Assembly (NCBI RefSeq): GCF_000242595.2
Contig: NC_017098.1
Coordinates: 434,001-498,000, forward strand
Direction: 5' to 3'
DNA from: Spirochaeta africana DSM 8902
GTDB taxonomy: Bacteria > Spirochaetota > Spirochaetia > DSM-27196 > DSM-8902
DNA length: 64,000 nt
Both the position numbers and the translations under genes were made by a program. Shown piece by piece: positions 46,924 to 59,638 of the stretch (position 1 is its first letter; the number at the start of each line of letters is the position of its first letter). The notes beneath the pieces were generated by a model. The model had not been told where the DNA came from. It did no database searches and saw nothing but the letters and a program-made list of their open reading frames with translations.

Positions 46924-47091
46924 CTCCGGGCGCCCCCCGCCGCCAGCCGCGGCGGGTCGGGCTCTCCGCTTCAACTCCTCGGGCCGCAGGCGGCCCTGCG
47001 GGGTACCGCTGCGATCCCTGGCGTAAGGACCGCGCCGGCCCGGTTTGTTGCCATCCTGGCGCTGTAGGCAACATTTCGCTTTTTCCTTGCA
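46924..47091. other. GC-rich gap with compact inverted repeats
   Basis: No gene. Contains CCGCCG/CGGCGG and GGGCCG-CAGG-CGGCCC hairpins in the first ~80 bases and turns AT-rich towards the WYL gene promoter. The first hairpins may terminate the preceding operon, though no U-tract follows. Confidence 0.4.
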
Positions 47092-47113
47092 TTTTACCTC
47101 CCCAAGGGTAAAA
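47092..47113 (+). promoter_or_regulatory. Inverted repeat upstream of the WYL regulator
   Basis: TTTTACC (47092-47098) and GGTAAAA (47107-47113) flank eight bases and end nine bases before the WYL gene ATG. It is a candidate autoregulatory operator. Confidence 0.55.
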
Positions 47114-47122
47114 ATAAAGGAT

Positions 47123-48145
47123 ATGTCTACGCCAGGCCAAGCTGGCCGCCGCTTTGCCTCCCAGGCAGAGCGGCGCGACCAGCTGGAACAGCTGCTGCTG
47201 CATTCACCTGTCGGCTACACCCAGGCCGAGCTGGTGGCGCGGCTGCAGACCAGCAAAGCGACGATCCACCGCGACATTCAGTATCTGTCGATGCATCTGC
47301 CAGTGCTGGAAGAGGGCAGGCGCTACCGGATCGATCCAGCCGGTTACCTGCACAACGTTCGTCTGAGCATGCACGAGCTGGAAGCCCTGCATCTCTCGGC
47401 CCGCCTGTTCGCCCGGGTAATGAAGTTCCCCTTTCCGCATGCCTCGGCCGCCCTGCGCAAACTCGCCGACGCCCAGAGCCGCGTCAGCCAGGCCCTGGCC
47501 GATCAGATTCTGCAAACCGCCGAGGACATCGACGGCTTTACCAGCCCGATTGACTACTCCCGGTATCGCAGCGTCATCGAGCAGCTGGGCCGTGCCATGA
47601 GTGAATCCCGCCCGGTTCTGGTATCGCACTACTCGGCCCGCAAACAGACCGAGCAGCGGTTTACCCTGTTTCCCATAACCCTGGAACCCCATCACGAGGG
47701 CCGGGCTGTGCACCTGCTGGCCTGGGACATCTCCACCGCATCCGAACAGTTTCGCACCATCAAGATCGAACGGATTACCCGCCTGGAACTGCAGCCCTCA
47801 GCCCCGCAGATCGCCAGCCGGATCCCCCGCGAACGCCTGCAGCAGCGCCTGCAGCACGCCTGGGGCATCTGGAGCTCCGACGATCCACCCCAGCAGGTGC
47901 GCCTGCAGTTCTCCGCCGCGGTTGCCCAGCGTGTACGCGAAACCCACTGGCACCACAGCATGACCCTGACTGATCACCCCGACGGAAGCCTGGAATGTCG
48001 TATGCAGATCGCCGAACCCCGCGAGATGTACCCTTGGATCCGCGGCTGGGGCCCGGATGTACAGATACTGGAACCCGAGTGGCTGCAACAGCAGCATAAA
48101 GAGGATATTCGGGCCATGGCGCGGATGTATGGGGAGGCGGAATGA
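47123..48145 (+). CDS. WYL-domain transcriptional regulator next to the CRISPR-Cas locus
   Basis: The 340-residue protein has an N-terminal winged HTH (RRDQLEQLLLHSPVGYTQAEL, RLQTSKATIHRDIQYLS), a linker, and a WYL-type domain. The latter shows PVLVSHYSARKQTEQRFTLF, LEPHHEGRAVHLLAWDI and RTIKIERITRLEL, and a C-terminal WCX-like extension follows. WYL proteins are ligand-sensing regulators often linked to CRISPR and other defence loci. It lies 107 bases upstream of cas1 in the same direction; the gap holds three palindromes. Control of cas genes is inferred. Base composition is chromosome-like, unlike the cas genes. Confidence 0.9.
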   Translation: MSTPGQAGRRFASQAERRDQLEQLLLHSPVGYTQAELVARLQTSKATIHRDIQYLSMHLPVLEEGRRYRIDPAGYLHNVRLSMHELEALHLSARLFARVMKFPFPHASAALRKLADAQSRVSQALADQILQTAEDIDGFTSPIDYSRYRSVIEQLGRAMSESRPVLVSHYSARKQTEQRFTLFPITLEPHHEGRAVHLLAWDISTASEQFRTIKIERITRLELQPSAPQIASRIPRERLQQRLQHAWGIWSSDDPPQQVRLQFSAAVAQRVRETHWHHSMTLTDHPDGSLECRMQIAEPREMYPWIRGWGPDVQILEPEWLQQQHKEDIRAMARMYGEAE

Positions 48146-48179
48146 GCGGGAATGCAGGTGAGGGTATGAATTCGGCAGG

Positions 48180-48230
48180 TTTTTCCGGAAAAAAGCGAAA
48201 AACTTTCGCCGGTGTTTCATTAGGTGAAAC
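48180..48230 (+). promoter_or_regulatory. Three consecutive palindromes upstream of cas1
   Basis: TTTTTCCGGAAAAA (48180-48193), GCGAAA-AAC-TTTCGC (48195-48209) and GTTTCA-TTAGG-TGAAAC (48214-48230) are each perfect. They lie 22-73 bases upstream of the cas1 ATG, before a GGGAGGGGG ribosome-site region. They are probable regulator sites or hairpins controlling the cas operon. Confidence 0.75.
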
Positions 48231-48252
48231 GGGGAGGGGGTAGGATGGTATC

Positions 48253-49212
48253 ATGGAATATTTGAATAATCTGAAAGCGATTCTCCACTCCAAACGTGCG
48301 AATATCTTTTACCTGGAAAAATGTCGTGTTTTAATGAAAGACGGCCGGGTTGTATATCTTACCGAGACAAAAAAAGAAAATCAGTATTTTAATATTCCAG
48401 TTGCGAATACGACGGTTATTTTGCTCGGCATGGGAACTTCGATAACCCAGGCTGCGGTAAGAATGCTCGCTTCGGCAGGCGTCTTACTTGGCTTCTCCGG
48501 CACCGGAGGGACACCTTTGCTGATGGGGGCAGAGGTTGAATGGATGACTCCGCAAAGTGAGTATCGTCCGACAGAATATGTACAAGGATGGTTGTCCTTT
48601 TGGTTTGATGAAAGGAAACGTCTCTCGGTTGCAAAACGCTTTCAAGAAGCAAGAATCGAGTATCTTGTAAAGGTGTGGGGGAAGGATAGAGATCTTCAGG
48701 ACCATCAGTTTTTCTGCGATGAGGATGATATCCAGCGCTCCCTGGAAGCGTTTCGCAAGGAGATTTCTGGTGCTAACTCTGTAGAATCATTATTGAGTAG
48801 CGAAGCTCAATTAACAAAGCGCCTGTACAAAGCAGCGGCGAAGCGAACTGGCCATGGGAAATTTATTCGTGAACGTGAGGCAATAGACAGCGCAAATACC
48901 TTTCTTAATCACGGAAATTATCTGGCGTACGGACTTGCTGCGACATGTCTGTGGGTTCTTGGAATTCCACATGGCTTTGCAGTTCTGCATGGAAAAACCC
49001 GACGTGGGGCTCTGGTTTTTGATGTGGCGGATATCATCAAGGATGCGATCATTTTGCCATGGGCCTTTATCTGTGCACAGGATAAATTAAAGGGGCAGGA
49101 GTTCCGTCAGCATTGTCTGATACAGTTCACCAAGCATAGGGCCCTAGAGCATGTATTTGAACTGGTAAAGGATGTTGCAATCAGCAAGGGTAACATGGAA
49201 GAGCAGGTATGA
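48253..49212 (+). CDS. cas1: CRISPR integrase Cas1, subtype I-F
   Basis: The 319-residue protein matches Cas1f: N-terminal beta domain (FYLEKCRVLMKDGRVVYLTE), then the catalytic helical domain with KFIREREAIDSANTFLNHGN and GFAVLHGKTRRGALVFDVAD, supplying the metal-binding His/Asp. It integrates spacers into the array together with the Cas2 part of Cas2-3. The codon and base composition is clearly more AT-rich than genes before 48.2 kb. The stop overlaps the cas2-3 start by four bases. Confidence 0.97.
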   Translation: MEYLNNLKAILHSKRANIFYLEKCRVLMKDGRVVYLTETKKENQYFNIPVANTTVILLGMGTSITQAAVRMLASAGVLLGFSGTGGTPLLMGAEVEWMTPQSEYRPTEYVQGWLSFWFDERKRLSVAKRFQEARIEYLVKVWGKDRDLQDHQFFCDEDDIQRSLEAFRKEISGANSVESLLSSEAQLTKRLYKAAAKRTGHGKFIREREAIDSANTFLNHGNYLAYGLAATCLWVLGIPHGFAVLHGKTRRGALVFDVADIIKDAIILPWAFICAQDKLKGQEFRQHCLIQFTKHRALEHVFELVKDVAISKGNMEEQV

Positions 49213-52200
49213 TCGTTACGTTTATCTCCCAATGCGAAAAGAAAGCACTAAGTCGTACACGACGAGTGCTTGATACATATGCTTCCAGGATAGGCAGCAG
49301 AACCTGGCAGACGGTAATCACCATGGATGGCTTGGCTGCGATCAAAAAACACCTGCGCAAGACAGCAACAAAAAACACCGCAGTTGCTTGTCACTGGATG
49401 CGAGGTAAGACACGGACGGAATTGCTCTGGGTGGTTGGTAACAGGCAGCAGTTCGATTCTGAAGGGGTTGTACCTGTACATTCGACTCAGAGGGATGTGT
49501 TTTCCGGATTAACCGAAAGTGATTGGGATCTCCTGCCGCAGATAAAGATTGTTGCTGCCATCTCTGCTTTGTTTCATGACTGGGGCAAGGCTTCTGAGCT
49601 ATTCCAGTCAAAGCTGCGTCCGAGTGATAAAAGAAAGGAAAAAGTTCTTGGCGATCCGGTTCGGCATGAATGGGTGTCGTGTTTCCTGTTTGCAGAATTT
49701 GTCAGAAGCTGTGGCTCAACGGACCGAGAGTGGCTTGATGCATTGTCTGACGGTAGACTGGATGAGAAAAAAATCATCCAGTCTGTGCAAGCATCTGAAA
49801 AAACACTGATTGAAAAAGTGAGGCATGTTCCGGCAGATCTGCCGCCTCTGGCCAGCGTCGTTCTGTATATCCTGCTGACACATCATCGCCTCCCTGTGTA
49901 CCGTGGATCTGGTCGATCACAATGGAAAGGGGTAAAGCGAGGCTCATTCAAGGAGTTGTTGCAAATAATCAGCTATGAATGGAGTTATGCCAATTATCTG
50001 GAGACTGAAGATCAGCGATGCAGATTGCCCCTTTGTTTTTCATTTCCACATGGTATATGTACGGATTCGCCGGCATGGATGAAGCAGATTAAAAAGTGGT
50101 CGCAAAGAGCACTGGAAAGGTATACATCCTTTTCAGAAATCATTAACTCGCCAGGATTTCGCAGCCTCATTCATTTTTCGAGATTAGCTGTTATGCTGGG
50201 TGATCATATCTATTCATCGCAACAGGCAGATCCCTCGTGGAAAACCGACATCCCACTGTACGCAAATACTGAGAAAGATAACAGTTTAAAGCAGAAACTT
50301 GATGAGCATTTGGTTGGTGTTATGAAGCAGGCGCTCAAAACAGCACACTTGCTTCCAAGACTAGAGTCATCGATGGATGAAGCCCGTGATGTCCAGAGCC
50401 TGAAGGCTGCGGCAAGACCTGGAACAAAATATTACTGGCAAGATAAAGCGGTAGAGAAGATTCTGGCATGGAGAACCGAACAGGCAGAGTTACTCAAGAA
50501 GCAGGATCAGTCGTTCGGGTTCTTCACGGTTAATATGGCAAGTACGGGGTGCGGCAAAACAACTGCCAATGCGAAAGTTATGCAAGCTTTGTCCCGGGAT
50601 TGTGACAGCTTGCGATATATTCTGGCGCTTGGCCTGCGAACATTAACGTTGCAAACCGGTGATGAATACAAGGAACGTTTGGGACTGGATGAAACCGAGC
50701 TTGCAGTATTGATCGGGTCTAAAGCCATTGCAACACTGCACCGTGAATGGCACAACGCACAACAAAACGAAGATAGTGAAGACACGGTTGAGATGAGTTC
50801 AGAGTCCCAGGAAACACTACTGGATGACCATATTGACTTTGCCTGTGACATACCTGAGGGTGATCTTCGTACACTCCTCCAGACAGAGAAGGATCGACAG
50901 ATGCTGTTTGCTCCTGTGTTGTCTTGTACGATCGATCACATGATGGCTGCTACCGAAACCACCAGGGGTGGCAGATGGATTTTGCCGTTTATGCGTTTGA
51001 TGACCAGCGATCTGGTGATTGACGAGATCGATGATTTTTCCGGCACAGATATGATTGCAGTTGGGCGCTTGGTATTTCTTGCTGGTATGTTGGGCCGAAA
51101 GGTAATGATCTCCTCGGCTACAATTACTCCCGATATCGCCGAGGGCTATTTTCATACTTATCACCAAGGATGGACTACCTACACAGCATCGAGAAATGCA
51201 AATGAAACTGTAGGTTGTTGCTGGATCGACGAATTCAGAACTGTTACATCGACTGTACAGGATTCTGATTCAATCAGCGCATCGCGCAACTTTGCCAATC
51301 ATCATAATCATTTTATTGAGAAGCGGGTTCGCAGCTTACGCTCTCAAAGGAACCAGAAAGGTGCTCGCAGGGTTGGTCAGTTAATTCAATGTAAAGATCT
51401 TCTCGAAATTGGATCTGAAGTAGAGCGGGAAGAAGCTCTTTTTGAGCGCTCTGCGCAGACCATATTGAGTCTTCATCAGGACAACTGCCATACCGATCCC
51501 GTGACCGGGAAAACTGTTTCCTTTGGCTGTGTGCGAATGGCAAACATTGATCCCTGTGTTTCTATGACGAAATATCTGCTTGGCTTTCAATGGCCGGAAG
51601 ATGTTTGTGTGTATGCTATGGCATATCATTCCCGTCAGGTTCTACTGTTGCGGAATGAACAGGAGCGACACCTCGACAGTGTACTGAAATGTAAAACCGA
51701 GGAGCCCCGACGTGCAGCATTCAGTAACCTGGTAATTCGAAAACAAATAGAAAAAAATGCTGCTGCGAATATTGTATTCGTGCTTGTAGCAACACCGGTA
51801 GAAGAGGTTGGTAGAGATCATGATTTTGATTGGGCGATTATCGAGCCTTCTTCGTATCGGTCAATTATTCAGCTGGCAGGGCGAGTAAGGCGTCATCGCA
51901 GCACTGTTGTACAGAAGCCGAACATTGCTATTCTGGAATTCAACCGCAAAGGTTTGCTTTCTGAAGGAGACCAGCCTGTATTTACCCGCCCTGGATTTGA
52001 AACCGACAGTATGCTCTTGAACTCTCATTCAATGGCCAGTTTGGTCAACGTACGAGATATGGAAAAGGGGATCGATGCGGTTCCCAGGATCAGCCGGAAT
52101 CAGGAGCTGAAACCGAAGGATTCATTGGTCGATCTGGAGCACAACAGTATTCATTGCAGTTTGACACACTACAAGCAAGTACCAGGGCCCGAGACTATGC

Positions 52201-52595
52201 ATGGATGGCACCATAATAGCTTCTGGTGGTTGACCGGTCAGGCACAACAATACAATTACGCGCCGTTTAGAGCGGGAGAATCGCAGATTGAGATTTGCGA
52301 CATATACACTGAAGACGGGAATTATTTCGGTGAATGGGAACAACGAAACAAAATTTGGCTAGATCGTGAATTAGTGTACAGGATAGATAGGGAGCGAGAT
52401 AGCGATATGGGATATGAGCGATTATGGTTGCATCGAGACTATCGTGCATTACTGGAAAGGAGGGAAGATCAGTATGGGGAGTCACCAGGAAAAGCATCCG
52501 GAGTTTTCGGAAGGTTGACGTTTCCTAAAAGATTTGAAGGCAGCAAACTATTGTATTCCGAGCAGTTTGGTTTGGTTGAGAACAGGCGAGAATGA
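49209..52595 (+). CDS. cas3: Cas2-Cas3 fusion nuclease-helicase, subtype I-F
   Basis: The 1128-residue protein has an N-terminal Cas2 domain (~1-95). A Cas3 HD nuclease carries ALFHDWGKA (~118-126) and later THHRLPVYRG. The SF2 helicase shows ASTGCGKTT (~445), VIDEIDDF (~604) and LAGRVRRHR (~890). It unwinds and degrades target DNA recruited by the Csy complex, and assists Cas1 in adaptation. The fusion is diagnostic of type I-F. All key motifs look intact. Confidence 0.97.
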   Translation: MIVTFISQCEKKALSRTRRVLDTYASRIGSRTWQTVITMDGLAAIKKHLRKTATKNTAVACHWMRGKTRTELLWVVGNRQQFDSEGVVPVHSTQRDVFSGLTESDWDLLPQIKIVAAISALFHDWGKASELFQSKLRPSDKRKEKVLGDPVRHEWVSCFLFAEFVRSCGSTDREWLDALSDGRLDEKKIIQSVQASEKTLIEKVRHVPADLPPLASVVLYILLTHHRLPVYRGSGRSQWKGVKRGSFKELLQIISYEWSYANYLETEDQRCRLPLCFSFPHGICTDSPAWMKQIKKWSQRALERYTSFSEIINSPGFRSLIHFSRLAVMLGDHIYSSQQADPSWKTDIPLYANTEKDNSLKQKLDEHLVGVMKQALKTAHLLPRLESSMDEARDVQSLKAAARPGTKYYWQDKAVEKILAWRTEQAELLKKQDQSFGFFTVNMASTGCGKTTANAKVMQALSRDCDSLRYILALGLRTLTLQTGDEYKERLGLDETELAVLIGSKAIATLHREWHNAQQNEDSEDTVEMSSESQETLLDDHIDFACDIPEGDLRTLLQTEKDRQMLFAPVLSCTIDHMMAATETTRGGRWILPFMRLMTSDLVIDEIDDFSGTDMIAVGRLVFLAGMLGRKVMISSATITPDIAEGYFHTYHQGWTTYTASRNANETVGCCWIDEFRTVTSTVQDSDSISASRNFANHHNHFIEKRVRSLRSQRNQKGARRVGQLIQCKDLLEIGSEVEREEALFERSAQTILSLHQDNCHTDPVTGKTVSFGCVRMANIDPCVSMTKYLLGFQWPEDVCVYAMAYHSRQVLLLRNEQERHLDSVLKCKTEEPRRAAFSNLVIRKQIEKNAAANIVFVLVATPVEEVGRDHDFDWAIIEPSSYRSIIQLAGRVRRHRSTVVQKPNIAILEFNRKGLLSEGDQPVFTRPGFETDSMLLNSHSMASLVNVRDMEKGIDAVPRISRNQELKPKDSLVDLEHNSIHCSLTHYKQVPGPETMHGWHHNSFWWLTGQAQQYNYAPFRAGESQIEICDIYTEDGNYFGEWEQRNKIWLDRELVYRIDRERDSDMGYERLWLHRDYRALLERREDQYGESPGKASGVFGRLTFPKRFEGSKLLYSEQFGLVENRRE

Positions 52596-52607
52596 AAAGG
52601 AGGGCGA

Positions 52608-53861
52608 ATGAGTGAAGAAGTGCGTGTTTTTTTTGCAGCAAGGCGGGAAGCGTGGCTGAAAAGCCCGGATCAGCGAAAAAAAATCAAGAACGGTGTTTCG
52701 GAGGAGGAACTGGAGCAAGAGGCAGATGAAAAATTTCATCCGGCAGAGTGGTGTGCAGAAAATGCTCGCAGAGCAAAGTCGCTTAGTTTGGTAACTCATA
52801 ACCCCAAGTTTTCCCATCCCGATATTAAGATTAAAGATGTAAATGTGATACAGGTCACAGCTCAGCAGAAGGACGATGGTTATTTGCGTACAGGAAATTG
52901 TGAGTATAAGTCCGACGCCTATGGAGATGCAGCATCACTTGCAGTATTAAAATTCTTGCAGCTCGAGATGACAGACGGTAGAACTGTTTTGGAGCACTTT
53001 GAACGCAGCTCTGAAGAATTACGTAAGGAAATCGGGGTATCAGCAGGTCAATTTGCAGAGATGCGAGAACAATTTCTTAATATAACGATGCCTAAAAGCA
53101 AAGACACAACGAGTGATCTCTTGAAACAAGTCTATTTCCCGGTAGGAGATGATTACCATTTGCTTTCATTGATTACGCCAGGCGGGTTGATTTCTGTTCT
53201 AAAGCAGCGAATTGATGATGTGCGATTCGGAAATGGTGTGAATGAAGCTAGAGATCAAAAAAGAAACGGGAAGTTCAGTGAGTGTGGCTATGCCGACATC
53301 CCGAACCTAGCTGTCATCGGATATGGTGGAACAAAAGCGCAGAACATAGGTCAATTAAATCTCGGGAATGGTGGTAAAGCAACTATGCTTATGACCTTAC
53401 CCCCTGCTCTGCAAGACAGGAAGGTATACCCACCGCGGACCAATTTTTTCCGGAACTGCTTGCGCGTTAATACTGTTGAGGAGTTTTTTGACTCATTAGA
53501 TCACTTGAGAGCAATAGATTATAACAACGCCTCAATACGGAGCGCAATTGAGCACTGGTACAAGAAGATTATTGACCAAATAGTTGCCCAGGCATGGGCC
53601 ATTCGTCGTGAATGTACCGGTTGGTCGTATGATGAGCGTTATTCCGCTGTTCCTTTGTATCAAAAACTCTGGCTTGATGAAGCCAGACAAAGTGAACGGG
53701 ACTTGAGCGAAGATTGGCAGCAATCGGTAATAGAGAATATGGTCCAGTGGATACGTATGACATACGAAAAGCGCAAGAACATGAAGGGACCAAAATTTGA
53801 TAGTACCGAGATTCAATTCATGACCAGACTGGCCAGCGAAAGCAAGGAGGGTCTGGTATGA
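52608..53861 (+). CDS. csy1: Csy1 (Cas8f) large subunit
   Basis: The 417-residue protein matches Csy1 in position, length and sequence: EVRVFFAARREAWLKS start, NPKFSHPDIKI, GYLRTGNC, NLAVIGYGGTKAQNIGQLN and PPRTNFFRNCL. In the type I-F complex it pairs with Csy2 at the crRNA 5' handle and reads the PAM. GGAGG precedes the ATG. It overlaps csy2 by four bases. Confidence 0.95.
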   Translation: MSEEVRVFFAARREAWLKSPDQRKKIKNGVSEEELEQEADEKFHPAEWCAENARRAKSLSLVTHNPKFSHPDIKIKDVNVIQVTAQQKDDGYLRTGNCEYKSDAYGDAASLAVLKFLQLEMTDGRTVLEHFERSSEELRKEIGVSAGQFAEMREQFLNITMPKSKDTTSDLLKQVYFPVGDDYHLLSLITPGGLISVLKQRIDDVRFGNGVNEARDQKRNGKFSECGYADIPNLAVIGYGGTKAQNIGQLNLGNGGKATMLMTLPPALQDRKVYPPRTNFFRNCLRVNTVEEFFDSLDHLRAIDYNNASIRSAIEHWYKKIIDQIVAQAWAIRRECTGWSYDERYSAVPLYQKLWLDEARQSERDLSEDWQQSVIENMVQWIRMTYEKRKNMKGPKFDSTEIQFMTRLASESKEGLV

Positions 53862-54745
53862 AACGGTTGCTAATTATCCCTCACTTAATAGTTCAGAATG
53901 CGAACGCACAGTCGAGCCCGTATACACTCGGATTCCCTGCCATGACTGCCTTTCTTGGGGCTACCCATGCTTTTCAACGGATTTTGTCAAAGCAATATCC
54001 TGAGTTCCAGGTAAAATCCACAGGTGTAGTATGTCACAATATGGAATTGCGTACTCACAAGGGATATGGAGATTTCGTTCATTCGGTAATCAATACTGCC
54101 AATCCGATAACGAAGGATGGCAAGCGGCCTTCCTTTATCGAAGAGCCAAAATGTTCTCTGGATATTACCCTGATTATGGAAGTAGATGGTATGCCATTGG
54201 GGAGTGAAGAGCACAAATTCCAGAAAACTGCTTCGGAGGTTCTCGATTCAAAAATGCGCATTGCTGGCGGTGATATTCTTGCATATCAGCCGATGATATA
54301 TCAATCGGTTGATTCGGAGGATCCGGTGACACTTTCCAGGTTCAAGCGATTGTTAATGCCGGGGTATGTATTGGTTGAACGTCGAGACCTCATGATCCAG
54401 GAAATGCAGGATGGAAATGATGCCTTGGATGCGCTGTTGAATTGCATGAAGATAGATCATTCTTGTGAGCAATCTGAAGACGGAACCGTGGAATGGCAAA
54501 GTAAACGGAAATATCCCGGGTGGCTTGTTCCTGTAGCTGTTGGCTACCAGGGTGTGTCTGAGCTTGGAAGGGTGAGCCGGCAGCGAGATCCAACAGTACA
54601 ACATCGCTTTGCGGAGGCAATAGTCACACTCGGAGAATTCGTTATGCCATACAGATTGAAAAAGGTTGATAGTCTGTTGTGGCATTACGAATCTGATCAG
54701 GAAAAAGGTTTATATTTCTGTACACAAACAAATAACCAAAAATAG
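53858..54745 (+). CDS. csy2: Csy2 (Cas5f)
   Basis: The 295-residue RAMP protein begins KRLLIIPHLIVQNANAQSSPYTLGFPAMTAFLGATHAF, the Csy2 hallmark. It binds the 8-base 5' handle of crRNA together with Csy1. Start overlaps csy1 (ATGA); the gene ends 12 bases before csy3. Confidence 0.95.
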   Translation: MKRLLIIPHLIVQNANAQSSPYTLGFPAMTAFLGATHAFQRILSKQYPEFQVKSTGVVCHNMELRTHKGYGDFVHSVINTANPITKDGKRPSFIEEPKCSLDITLIMEVDGMPLGSEEHKFQKTASEVLDSKMRIAGGDILAYQPMIYQSVDSEDPVTLSRFKRLLMPGYVLVERRDLMIQEMQDGNDALDALLNCMKIDHSCEQSEDGTVEWQSKRKYPGWLVPVAVGYQGVSELGRVSRQRDPTVQHRFAEAIVTLGEFVMPYRLKKVDSLLWHYESDQEKGLYFCTQTNNQK

Positions 54746-54757
54746 CAGGAGGACGAA

Positions 54758-55789
54758 ATGGCGAAATCAAAGGAAACAATGGCATCTGTATTGGCGTATG
54801 AGAAGAAAATAGTACCTTCGGATGCCCGTATGTATGGCACAATCTGGGAGGCAAGGCATTCCGAAAGGAAACCGTTGAACATTATTGAGAAGTCAATCCG
54901 GGGAACGATATCTAACAGGTTAAGTACGGCTCTGAAAAATGACCCTTCAAAAATCGATGCTGAGGTAGAAAAAGCCAATCTCCAAAAAGTTGACAGTTGT
55001 GGTTTAGCGATGGAGCAGGATACTCTTTGTATTGAATTCACCTTGAAGGTTCTGAGTGGTGTGGAAAATCCCTCTGCATGTAACAATGTGCAATTTCTGG
55101 AAACATATCAGATTGCTGCACAGGATTACATTGCCAGGGAGAATTTTACCGAGCTTGGAAAACGGTATGCAGTTAATATTGCAAACGGACGTTTCTTGTG
55201 GCGAAATCGCTTCGGGGCGGATTCAGTCGAAATCAGAGTCGAGCAATTGGGGAGCGATGAGCATGAAGAGCCGATGATCTTCAATGCTTTTTCGTATTCG
55301 GTAAAGAGTTTCGATACGGATGACACCGATGTGCAAAAGCTGGGAAATGAAATCGCAAAAGTACTGTCGGGAAAAGTGTCGCACAAATTATTCAGGATTT
55401 CTGCATATGCCAAGGTGGGTCTGGGTCAAGAGGTCTATCCAAGTGAAGAGCTGGTACTGGATAAGGGAAAAGGAAATAAGGGAAAAGTTCTTTTTGATAT
55501 TAATGGCGTAGCCGGAATGCATTCGCAAAAGATTGGCAATGCAATACGAACCATTGATACCTGGTATCCTGAGTATGCTGATTCAACAGTCGGGCCTATT
55601 GCGGTAGAACCGTACGGAGCTGTTACAACGCTGGGAAAAGCTTTTCGTACACCGAAGAACAAGTCTGATTTCTATACACTGTTTGACAACTTCTCAAGAG
55701 GTGGCAAGCTGGCCAGTATAGAAGAAGAACATTATGTTATGGCTGTTCTGGTCCGCGGCGGAGTATTCGGTGAGAGCTCCAAGGAGTAG
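54758..55789 (+). CDS. csy3: Csy3 (Cas7f) backbone subunit
   Basis: The 343-residue protein starts SKETMASVLAYEKKIVPSDARMYGTIWEARHSERKPL, typical of Csy3, and has NIANGRFLWRNRFGAD. Several copies form the helical backbone along the spacer part of crRNA. AGGAGGACG precedes the ATG. A good ribosome site (AAGGAG) inside its 3' end serves cas6f. Confidence 0.95.
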   Translation: MAKSKETMASVLAYEKKIVPSDARMYGTIWEARHSERKPLNIIEKSIRGTISNRLSTALKNDPSKIDAEVEKANLQKVDSCGLAMEQDTLCIEFTLKVLSGVENPSACNNVQFLETYQIAAQDYIARENFTELGKRYAVNIANGRFLWRNRFGADSVEIRVEQLGSDEHEEPMIFNAFSYSVKSFDTDDTDVQKLGNEIAKVLSGKVSHKLFRISAYAKVGLGQEVYPSEELVLDKGKGNKGKVLFDINGVAGMHSQKIGNAIRTIDTWYPEYADSTVGPIAVEPYGAVTTLGKAFRTPKNKSDFYTLFDNFSRGGKLASIEEEHYVMAVLVRGGVFGESSKE

Positions 55790-55795
55790 CCGTGT

Positions 55796-56377
55796 ATGAA
55801 TTATTACTCAGAAATAACATTGCTGCCCGGTGCTGACATTGGGTTGTACCAGTTATGGAGCAAGGTTTTTACTCAGGTGCATTTGCGGCTTGTGGAATTC
55901 CAGAACCCTGATGGTAATGTGCCGATAGGTGTTGATTGGCCAGAGTACAAAGCTGATATTCCGTCTCTTGGAACTAAACTACGAATCTTTTCCAGCACCA
56001 GGGAGACGTTGGAGCAGTTTGACTTGAATGTCGTTCTTCTCCGCTTTTCGGATTATGTAAAGGTGAGTGGCATACGATCAGTACCACAGAACATCAGCTC
56101 GTACGTTGCCTATGAACGTGTTCAGAAAAAGCAAAACCCTGACAGAATCGCGAGACGACGTGCCCGAAGAAGCAACCTTGACTATACGGAAGCTCTAAGA
56201 GCAGTGGCAGAAAAAAATGCCCCAGTTATTACTCTACCATATGTTCAACTGATTAGTCTGAGCACCAAGAGAAAGTACTCTCTTTTTCTGGCCAAACGCC
56301 TTACTGAAGAACCCGGGGGAAATATTTCGTTTAATTCATTTGGCATTAATAAACATTCCACTGTCCCCTCTTTCTGA
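55796..56377 (+). CDS. cas6f: Cas6f (Csy4) crRNA endoribonuclease
   Basis: The 193-residue protein follows Csy4 throughout: YYSEITLLPGADIGLYQLW, the catalytic His region FTQVHLRLVE, the arginine-rich helix RIARRRARRSN that grips the repeat stem, PYVQLISLSTK, and the C-terminal FNSFGINKHSTVPSF. It cuts each repeat transcript just 3' of the CTGCC/GGCAG stem. ATG 55796 is seven bases after the csy3 stop. Its stop lies inside a hairpin. Confidence 0.95.
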   Translation: MNYYSEITLLPGADIGLYQLWSKVFTQVHLRLVEFQNPDGNVPIGVDWPEYKADIPSLGTKLRIFSSTRETLEQFDLNVVLLRFSDYVKVSGIRSVPQNISSYVAYERVQKKQNPDRIARRRARRSNLDYTEALRAVAEKNAPVITLPYVQLISLSTKRKYSLFLAKRLTEEPGGNISFNSFGINKHSTVPSF

Positions 56378-56394
56378 GGGGATATTTAGTTCTT
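56364..56394 (+). terminator. Possible terminator between cas6f and the leader
   Basis: TCCCCTC (56364-56370) pairs with GAGGGGA (56376-56382) around TTTCT, followed by a T-rich stretch to 56394. The U-tract is interrupted, so it may be partial. Confidence 0.5.
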
Positions 56395-56482
56395 TTTCAG
56401 CACTAGAGAAGGAATAGATGGTAAAAATCTCAATCTCTTGCTATGTTATTACTGTTAAGTGTTTTAACGGAGCAGTTATACC
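56383..56482 (+). promoter_or_regulatory. CRISPR leader
   Basis: AT-rich, non-coding DNA between cas6f and the first repeat, the expected position of the promoter and of the integration signals. No specific site could be assigned. Confidence 0.75.
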
Positions 56483-59390
56483 GTTACCTGCCGCATAGGC
56501 AGCTTAGAAACGAGACAGGATCGGTCACCCGCTTTTCTGCGAGTTACCTGCCGCATAGGCAGCTTAGAAATGAGCCATGGTGGTAGTATGCGTCCCGGGA
56601 TGGTTACCTGCCGCATAGGCAGCTTAGAAAAACCTTTGGTTGCTCCGATATTGCACGAAATTGTTACCTGCCGCATAGGCAGCTTAGAAACTGTGGTGTC
56701 ATCTGGCATTATTAACAACAAGGTTACCTGCCGCATAGGCAGCTTAGAAATTTACTCCTGTATTGTCACGCAAGCGATATACGTTACCTGCCGCATAGGC
56801 AGCTTAGAAAACTATCCTCAAGTACGAAAGACAAGAATATTGGTTACCTGCCGCATAGGCAGCTTAGAAAGTTGTCGTCGAGGATGCCCCATTTTACTGT
56901 ATGTTACCTGCCGCATAGGCAGCTTAGAAATCCTTAGAGTCTATTCCATAACCAGTCCCTAAGTTACCTGCCGCATAGGCAGCTTAGAAATGTCTACGAC
57001 CGCACCGAGCATAAGCAGCTGGGTTACCTGCCGCATAGGCAGCTTAGAAAGTCCGTCAGTCGCTGGCATTCCACGGCATCAAGTTACCTGCCGCATAGGC
57101 AGCTTAGAAATACCGATTCGCTCATGCGCTGCAGCACGAGTTGTTACCTGCCGCATAGGCAGCTTAGAAATACTTGCAAACTTGGCCGGACAAGCTGTTA
57201 ATGTTACCTGCCGCATAGGCAGCTTAGAAATTGCAGTTCTACCCGCATGTCCTGTAGCTTGGGTTACCTGCCGCATAGGCAGCTTAGAAAGGTATGATTG
57301 GTCTATGCCTATGGTGTAGCTAGTTACCTGCCGCATAGGCAGCTTAGAAATCCTTCAAAAGTTGCCGGGGAGTTACCCCCGGGTTACCTGCCGCATAGGC
57401 AGCTTAGAAAATTCTCGCGCTCGGGCAATGCGGCAAGCAAGGGTTACCTGCCGCATAGGCAGCTTAGAAAAGCAGCTCCGACAGGTCAGCATTCTTTCTG
57501 ACGTTACCTGCCGCATAGGCAGCTTAGAAAATCTAATACAGCTGCATATTGTGACAACGTGTGTTACCTGCCGCATAGGCAGCTTAGAAATTGCAGAGCT
57601 GCTGGTAGAGCGCATGACCGGCGTTACCTGCCGCATAGGCAGCTTAGAAAAGTATTGTGGAGCATCCGCGCCTGATGTAGTCGTTACCTGCCGCATAGGC
57701 AGCTTAGAAATATCACAACCTTATTCCTCCACGACTAGACCCGTTACCTGCCGCATAGGCAGCTTAGAAATGATACTGGCGCAGAAACATATGAAGTCAA
57801 TTGTTACCTGCCGCATAGGCAGCTTAGAAATTAGATGGCTGCTCTGTTTCGTGTACTTTTCCGTTACCTGCCGCATAGGCAGCTTAGAAATACGTAATCA
57901 GGCGGACATCGGCAGCATACTGGTTACCTGCCGCATAGGCAGCTTAGAAATGTCCTATTTCGGTGAACAACCTCAATCCATTGTTACCTGCCGCATAGGC
58001 AGCTTAGAAATTAATGGTCAATCAGTCCTGGTGTTGACTGAAGTTACCTGCCGCATAGGCAGCTTAGAAAATCAGGGCGCGCTTCAAATTCGCGATGTCG
58101 GAGTTACCTGCCGCATAGGCAGCTTAGAAAATAATGGCCCTCCCTGTCTTTCCCGCTACTGCGTTACCTGCCGCATAGGCAGCTTAGAAATCCTGCAACA
58201 GCTACCCGCAATTCACCCGTCAGTTACCTGCCGCATAGGCAGCTTAGAAATCGTCATTCCATAAGAGCTCCCAAGTTGTGCCGTTACCTGCCGCATAGGC
58301 AGCTTAGAAACCGAGGGCATGAGCGTGACCGTGCAGGTAACAGTTACCTGCCGCATAGGCAGCTTAGAAAGATATGCCCGAGGACTATCCGTACACCGTG
58401 ACGTTACCTGCCGCATAGGCAGCTTAGAAAGTAAAGCCATATTTTAAACATGATTCAAAGGTGTTACCTGCCGCATAGGCAGCTTAGAAAATCATGATCA
58501 TGAATGCATCTTCCGAGTCCTCGTTACCTGCCGCATAGGCAGCTTAGAAACCTGTCAGTTCGTTCTGCCTGATCCATTCATCGTTACCTGCCGCATAGGC
58601 AGCTTAGAAAAGTTTCGGGTCAACCTCATCTGGTATGTGCATGTTACCTGCCGCATAGGCAGCTTAGAAATTCCACCAATATACACCCGGCCGACACTTT
58701 TGGTTACCTGCCGCATAGGCAGCTTAGAAATTCCACCAATATACACCCGGCCGACACTTTTGGTTACCTGCCGCATAGGCAGCTTAGAAAAAAACCGGGT
58801 GGAACGGTTACAGCCAGTATTGGTTACCTGCCGCATAGGCAGCTTAGAAAATCATCGCCTTTAATCAAAGCGAATTTAGAATGTTACCTGCCGCATAGGC
58901 AGCTTAGAAATCGGGAAACTCGTTCTGGATTTGCCGCCTGAGGTTACCTGCCGCATAGGCAGCTTAGAAATAAGAATTACTTCATCCGCAAAGTTAGGAT
59001 TCGTTACCTGCCGCATAGGCAGCTTAGAAAGCAAGCGGATTTCATGCAAGCTATAAATCCGGGTTACCTGCCGCATAGGCAGCTTAGAAATGATGGTCGC
59101 CGTAGTGGAACAGACCCTGTTCGTTACCTGCCGCATAGGCAGCTTAGAAATGTATCTCTGTGATCATCATTGCTCTGCCCCTGTTACCTGCCGCATAGGC
59201 AGCTTAGAAATGTCCTATTTCGGTGAACAACCTCAATCCATTGTTACCTGCCGCATAGGCAGCTTAGAAATGGGTGTTGGGGGCGTCGACCTCGCTGGTT
59301 TCGTTACCTGCCGCATAGGCAGCTTAGAAATTGGATTGTTCGCCATAGCCTCGCGCATCCGAGTTACCTGCCGCATAGGCAGCTTAGAAA
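56483..59390 (+). CRISPR. Type I-F CRISPR array: 49 repeats, 48 spacers
   Basis: A 28-base repeat starting GTTACCTGCCGCATAGGCAG and ending CTTAGAAA occurs every 60 bases, 49 times, with no change that I can see. All 48 spacers are 32 bases. The repeat has a CTGCC-GCATA-GGCAG hairpin and a CTTAGAAA 5' handle, close to the Pseudomonas I-F repeat. Two spacers are duplicated: 58671-58702 equals 58731-58762, and 57951-57982 equals 59211-59242. The last repeat is not degenerate. The orientation (leader left) follows from the cas6f-side AT-rich leader. Confidence 0.98.
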
Positions 59391-59638
59391 ATGTGCTGCG
59401 CAGTCGTGTGTTCGAGCGTTTCGTACAGCGCACAATGGCATTCTTCCAGAAGCATCCGGAGTTGTCCGACCGGCATCCGGCCGGCAGCGAGGTTGCGGCG
59501 TATGCGTGGCAAGGTGCATTGTTCGGTGTACTCGACTGGATCATGGCGCACTCAGATCTGACTGACAGGGAGATCTCGGAGACAGTGCGGTTCGCAGTGT
59601 CATGGAACCTAAATGCGCTTACCGCACGCACTGAATAG
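59391..59638 (+). pseudogene. C-terminal fragment, possibly of a TetR-like regulator
   Basis: Directly after the last repeat, an in-frame stretch reads VLRSRVFERFVQRTMAFFQK, HPELSDRHPAGSEVAAYAWQ, GALFGVLDWIMAHSDLTDRE, then AVSWNLNALTARTE and stop. This helical sequence resembles the ligand-domain end of TetR proteins. Its composition is like a real gene, but no N-terminus exists; the array occupies that place. A GTG at 59393 could allow an 81-residue product. Family assignment is tentative. Confidence 0.5.

Follow-up and report, generated by a model that had tools for sequence, protein, structure and literature searches.

In Spirochaeta africana DSM 8902, three palindromes of different sequence are packed into the 51 nt before cas1 of a type I-F CRISPR-Cas operon, next to a gene for a WYL-domain regulator, which raises the question of whether this short gap is a control region, which of the three sites the regulator would read and whether it would turn the immune genes on or off. 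The presence of WYL genes in CRISPR loci has been on record since 2014, and what is known of their action there mostly concerns a negative regulator of a type I-D system and an accessory protein of type VI-D. The locus was analysed within a stretch of 64,000 nt (GCF_000242595.2, NC_017098.1, positions 434,001-498,000, forward strand), here called the window, whose coordinates are used throughout.

The gap between regulator and cas1

The WYL gene (47123..48145, + strand) encodes a protein of 340 aa with the Pfam domains HTH, WYL and WCX. It is followed on the same strand by cas1 (48253..49212), the first operon gene and assigned to Cas1f by PADLOC, and by the cas2/3 fusion, csy1 (cas8f), csy2 (cas5f), csy3 (cas7f) and cas6f (49209..56377), which completes the type I-F gene set, and a CRISPR array comes next; a WYL regulator adjoining a I-F cas operon, as the sequence-only reading had it, is thus what the locus contains. 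The array (56378-59500) comprises about 49 repeats with an exact period of 60 nt, owing to which long spurious reading frames stay open across it, and two of its spacers occur twice, one as a distant pair (57920, 59180) and one as an adjacent pair (58640, 58700).

P1, TTTTTCCGGAAAAA (48180..48193), is a gap-free palindrome with arms of 7 nt and no centre. P2, GCGAAAAACTTTCGC (48195..48209), reads GCGAAA-N3-TTTCGC, with arms of 6 nt around a centre of 3 nt, and P3, GTTTCATTAGGTGAAAC (48214..48230, + strand), reads GTTTCA-TTAGG-TGAAAC, with arms of 6 nt, a centre of 5 nt and a core of GTTTC-N7-GAAAC. All three had been described within 48180-48230 as perfect palindromes, a description that holds with the qualification that the arms of P2 and P3 are separated by a centre, which makes them interrupted dyads. 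When the 107 nt that separate the WYL gene from cas1 were shuffled with dinucleotides preserved, three or more non-overlapping palindromes arose in only 1 of 5000 trials; a scan of the window in 55-nt stretches found no second cluster of three. P1 and P2 by themselves are less striking, as shuffling the 45 nt that precede P3 gave two palindromes in 55 of 5000 trials.

The palindromes sit on a seam in base composition that runs through 47123-56377, with a G+C content of 63.5% in the WYL gene and 44-47% in the cas genes (77 versus about 45 at third codon positions), and are hence placed at the boundary of host-like and foreign-looking DNA. The same direction of change was found in all 18 loci with an unfused WYL gene in the comparison described below, the G+C content of the regulator gene exceeding that of the next large gene.

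Conservation of P3 and its place in the predicted promoter

The gap was compared among 20 Spirochaetia loci of one WYL family, namely the window and 19 relatives, all from this single bacterial class (241.7 kb in total), whose WYL proteins are 31-67% identical to that of the window. A slightly relaxed form of the P3 core, GTTKC-N7-GMAAC, occurs exactly once per locus in 18 of the 20, whereas shuffled sequence led to an expectation of 1.1 sites on average and 4 at most in the whole 241.7 kb. The dyad adjoins the regulator gene, lying 14-146 nt beyond its end or, in L070, L073 and L075, 59-96 nt ahead of it, and it stands before type I-C, I-E or I-F cas genes or before a type IV restriction locus. 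One relative, L072, carries the identical 17-mer although its WYL protein is only 36% identical to that of the window. The two arms co-vary, position 4 being a G/C pair in 14 sites and a T/A pair in 4. Within the 3.29-Mb genome of S. africana the exact arms of P3 are unique, and P3 is the sole mismatch-free match to the dyad combined with a -10 element. The two exceptions in the family retain traces of the site: in L069 a half-degenerate dyad is followed by TAGAGT at the expected spacing, and in L076 a partly decayed dyad lies upstream of the WYL gene. No such dyad was found in four I-F loci of the same class that lack a WYL gene, which argues that the dyad travels with the regulator and not with the I-F genes.

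A scan of genome contigs returned a single record, the same locus as L012/L066 (Alkalispirochaeta alkalica), which has the same gene order; a search of plasmid proteins yielded distant WYL proteins only (30% identity or less), and a search of viral contigs yielded none. For distant WYL genes (L079, L084-L092) the strict dyad does not occur before a cas operon; an imperfect dyad, TTTGCA-N5-TGCAA, with a -10 TATAAT at +26, is present in L084/L085. In L088-L091, which as far as seen are not CRISPR loci, a GTTGCA-type dyad lies just past the -10 of the WYL gene's own predicted promoter, a placement that is repressor-like judging from its position, and in at least some of them the WYL gene is followed by a short frame that was recognised by eye as rubredoxin-like.

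Inverted repeats also occur on the other side of the regulator gene. The one noticed earlier, TTTTACC-N8-GGTAAAA (47092-47113), is indeed present, and nothing corresponding to it was seen by eye ahead of the WYL genes in the relatives. A second perfect repeat, TGTTGCC-N14-GGCAACA (47046-47073), shares the half-site GTTGC with the putative operator of the relatives at a longer spacing, and none was seen in the relatives either. An autoregulatory site at 47046-47073 or 47092-47113 was considered and set aside, no counterpart of either having been seen in the relatives. Upstream of the WYL gene of the I-F locus L061 there is a perfect 12-bp inverted repeat, CATTCTATACGG/CCGTATAGAATG.

When the 18 dyads are aligned, A is found at +28 in 18 of 18 and T at +32 in 17 of 18, a pair score of 35 of 36 where the next best offset reaches 18. 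In a -10 hexamer, the A and T at these places would be the bases that vary least. The hexamer is TAGGAT in the window (48241..48246, + strand) and TATAAT, TATACT, TAAAAT, TAAACT or TATTCT in several other loci, and the dyad is situated 10 nt before this putative -10 element at fixed spacing. With the hexamer at -12..-7 the dyad would cover about -39 to -23, so that the normal -35 slot falls inside it. No consensus -35 was found at a spacing of 15-18 nt in the aligned loci (0-4 of 6 matches to TTGACA, mostly 0-2), and the consensus scan returned no standard promoter. The predicted start in the window is at or beside the cas1 ATG, for which reason a nearly leaderless mRNA, or a TAGGAT that doubles as ribosome-binding site, has to be allowed for; since leaders in other loci are longer, the -10 assignment survives in general.

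P3 is also able to form a hairpin in read-through RNA, and the dyads might in principle act as an attenuator or terminator in a joint WYL-cas transcript. Such a role was rejected and is highly improbable: the fold is of ordinary stability (z -1.27, with 19 of 200 shuffles equally stable), there is no terminator on the + strand and a single weak one in antisense where 1.5 are expected, the -10 comes after P3 at a constant spacing, and the counterpart of P3 precedes the gene in the loci with fused genes.

Conservation does not extend to P1 and P2. Their best matches in the relatives carry 4-7 mismatches at scattered offsets, and palindromes upstream of the P3 counterpart are not enriched across the 18 loci (4 seen, 2.0 expected, a number reached by 125 of 1000 shuffles). 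What the 18 loci do share are two A-rich blocks of columns at -26..-21 and -15..-10 relative to the dyad start, about 11 nt apart, the strongest column being reached in 3 of 3000 random rotations; some of these columns reach into the last part of the WYL reading frame, and where the gap is short the coding sequence may contribute to the A-richness. The A-tracts of P1 (48189-48194) and P2 (48198-48202) fall on these two blocks, and relatives have A-tracts at the same places without symmetry. P1 and P2 together therefore look like the local form of a UP-like A-tract promoter element whose symmetry would be incidental.

These comparisons bear directly on the architecture that the sequence-only reading had proposed, in which three sites would serve a number of regulators, or a single one that binds in more than one mode. 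The rarity of three dyads within 51 nt (1 of 5000 shuffles) speaks in its favour, but with P1 and P2 missing from the relatives, no surplus of palindromes upstream of P3 over the 18 loci and asymmetric A-tracts in the corresponding places, three separate operators are quite improbable. Its suggestion to compare relatives with the same WYL-cas order thus divides the sites, P3 being conserved and P1 and P2 not, and its broader idea of a WYL control region before the cas operon finds support in P3 as a conserved, WYL-linked dyad in promoter position. A chance cluster in AT-rich spacer DNA, finally, would be compatible with the 55 of 5000 shuffles that match P1 and P2 but cannot account for P3, with 18 sites against 1.1 expected and an invariant -10; as an explanation of the whole it is hardly credible, being already refuted for P3, though the symmetry of P1 and P2 may have arisen in this way.

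Nearest known regulators and the sign of control

The WYL protein has the architecture of DriD-type homodimeric activators, with a winged helix-turn-helix (wHTH), a three-helix region, WYL and WCX (from Pfam and structure matches). DriD of Caulobacter crescentus, which shares the wHTH-WYL-WCX order, is its nearest match in fold and profile: a Foldseek search with the AF2 model (pLDDT 86) ranked DriD best at 2.8e-16, followed by PafBC, with BrxR and CapW below at about 1e-6; VIA structure comparison gave DriD a Z of 17.8; and the profile search returned E values of 3.5e-23 for DriD, 8.8e-13 for PafBC and 3e-4 for BrxR. DriD is an activator that responds to single-stranded DNA (ssDNA) and binds a dyad with N7 between its half-sites, which extends over a poor -35 and is always equally far from the -10 (PMC12340889), a layout also seen at P3. 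The likeness has limits. The DriD half-site is ATACGAC and not GTTKC, DriD controls DNA-damage genes whereas the protein described here is predicted to act on cas operons, and the alpha-CTD makes no DNA contact in the DriD complex while A-rich upstream tracts are shared among the present loci. The order of regulator gene, palindrome and target operon seen in the window is also that of the mycobacterial SiwR, whose imperfect 19-bp palindrome lies between -35 and -10 (PMC10693628). SiwR and PafBC belong to genotoxic-stress regulons and not to CRISPR, and PafBC is a heterodimer where a homodimer is predicted here.

P3 is very probably the operator of the adjacent WYL protein, as predicted from its conservation and linkage, and if it is, the protein probably activates. 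Both expectations follow from the DriD-like protein and site layout, from the SiwR-like gene order and from the position of CapW and BrxR sites on or after the -10. Fold likeness to activators is no proof of activation, as is illustrated by sll7009, a known CRISPR WYL regulator that is negative on a type I-D system (PMC4012209).

The converse, that the WYL protein represses from P3, its dimer over the -35 region blocking RNA polymerase until a ligand releases it during infection, must accordingly be weighed. A site over the -35 can block polymerase, sll7009 is a precedent within CRISPR, and CapW (CBASS) and BrxR (BREX) are WYL repressors that bind dyads before defence operons, as would be the case here, homologues of BrxR even adjoining CRISPR loci (PMC9122601, PMC9122588). 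However, CapW sites overlap the -10 and BrxR sites lie downstream of it, whereas 10 nt separate the end of the P3 dyad from the -10-like hexamer; both proteins are more distant fold matches, the window's protein being nearer to DriD and PafBC in sequence and fold. Furthermore, almost none of the loci has a usable -35 at the normal spacing, which leaves little basal promoter to repress, and the distance from dyad to -10 is fixed to the base. Repression is therefore an unlikely, though not a far-fetched, alternative.

The account that explains the locus best as a whole, and that we hold to be reasonably likely, is activation of the cas promoter by a WYL dimer on P3, with the A-tracts of P1 and P2 as upstream element. 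A WYL homodimer would read the two half-sites of P3 through its wHTH domains, straddle the -35 slot with the dyad at about -39 to -23 and recruit RNA polymerase in the manner of DriD, which would switch the cas operon on. The signal may be a nucleic-acid ligand in the WYL domain, perhaps ssDNA as in DriD and PafBC. Because the WYL gene precedes the operator and would be transcribed from elsewhere, it would mostly not be self-regulated, except where it is fused to or overlaps cas3 and the dyad has moved ahead of it.

The recognition helix is predicted at about residues 45-58. Residue 44, at its start, is S in proteins paired with GTTTC, while almost all loci with GTTGC have H or D there, which makes it a suggestive lead for the residue that reads the half-site; on the tree the covariation amounts to just two changes that are independent of each other (sign test p 0.5), and L084/L085 disagree.

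One regulator and several immune systems

WYL genes and WYL-Cas3 fusions are known from type I CRISPR loci (PMC4012209), an association that recurs here, fusions included; the passages of that paper that were searched describe no operator or promoter layout. Behind the WYL gene stand type I-C systems in 12 loci (including L076), I-E in L071 and L072, I-F in the window, L061 and L069, and a type IV restriction enzyme in L075, a count that leaves out L074 and L078 and in which L073 is typed from the length of its fused frame, which fits Cas3, and from its close relationship to L070. The three WYL proteins from I-F loci are not monophyletic (AU p 4.6e-33), while the I-F Cas1 proteins share 58-74% identity among themselves. 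The WYL tree shows six or more changes of system type. The scattered I-F regulators and the repeated changes of type imply that regulator and immune genes were re-paired repeatedly, and the regulator-operator pair appears, from these trees, to have been swapped between immune systems.

In L070 and L073 the WYL domain protein is fused to the N-terminus of the type I-C Cas3 and the dyad has moved before the fusion gene; the fused Cas3 may thus control its own promoter. In L075 (1269-6284) the WYL gene, with the dyad upstream of it, precedes a methyl-directed restriction enzyme of type IV, which occupies two reading frames, and the candidate defence gene PDC-S07, with no CRISPR system.

A portable cassette of WYL gene, operator and promoter, joined repeatedly to I-C, I-E, I-F and type IV systems and working by DriD-type activation astride the -35 in response to ssDNA, is a plausible extension of these observations that we put forward tentatively, at somewhat less than even chances. 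For type I systems, a defined candidate operator, its promoter position and a predicted sign, activation, can now be given for a WYL regulator. The sharing of one sensor module among otherwise unrelated immune systems is suggested, in which case one signal could govern them all, and if the cassette holds true, CRISPR expression in these spirochaetes would be tied to DNA damage or phage replication.
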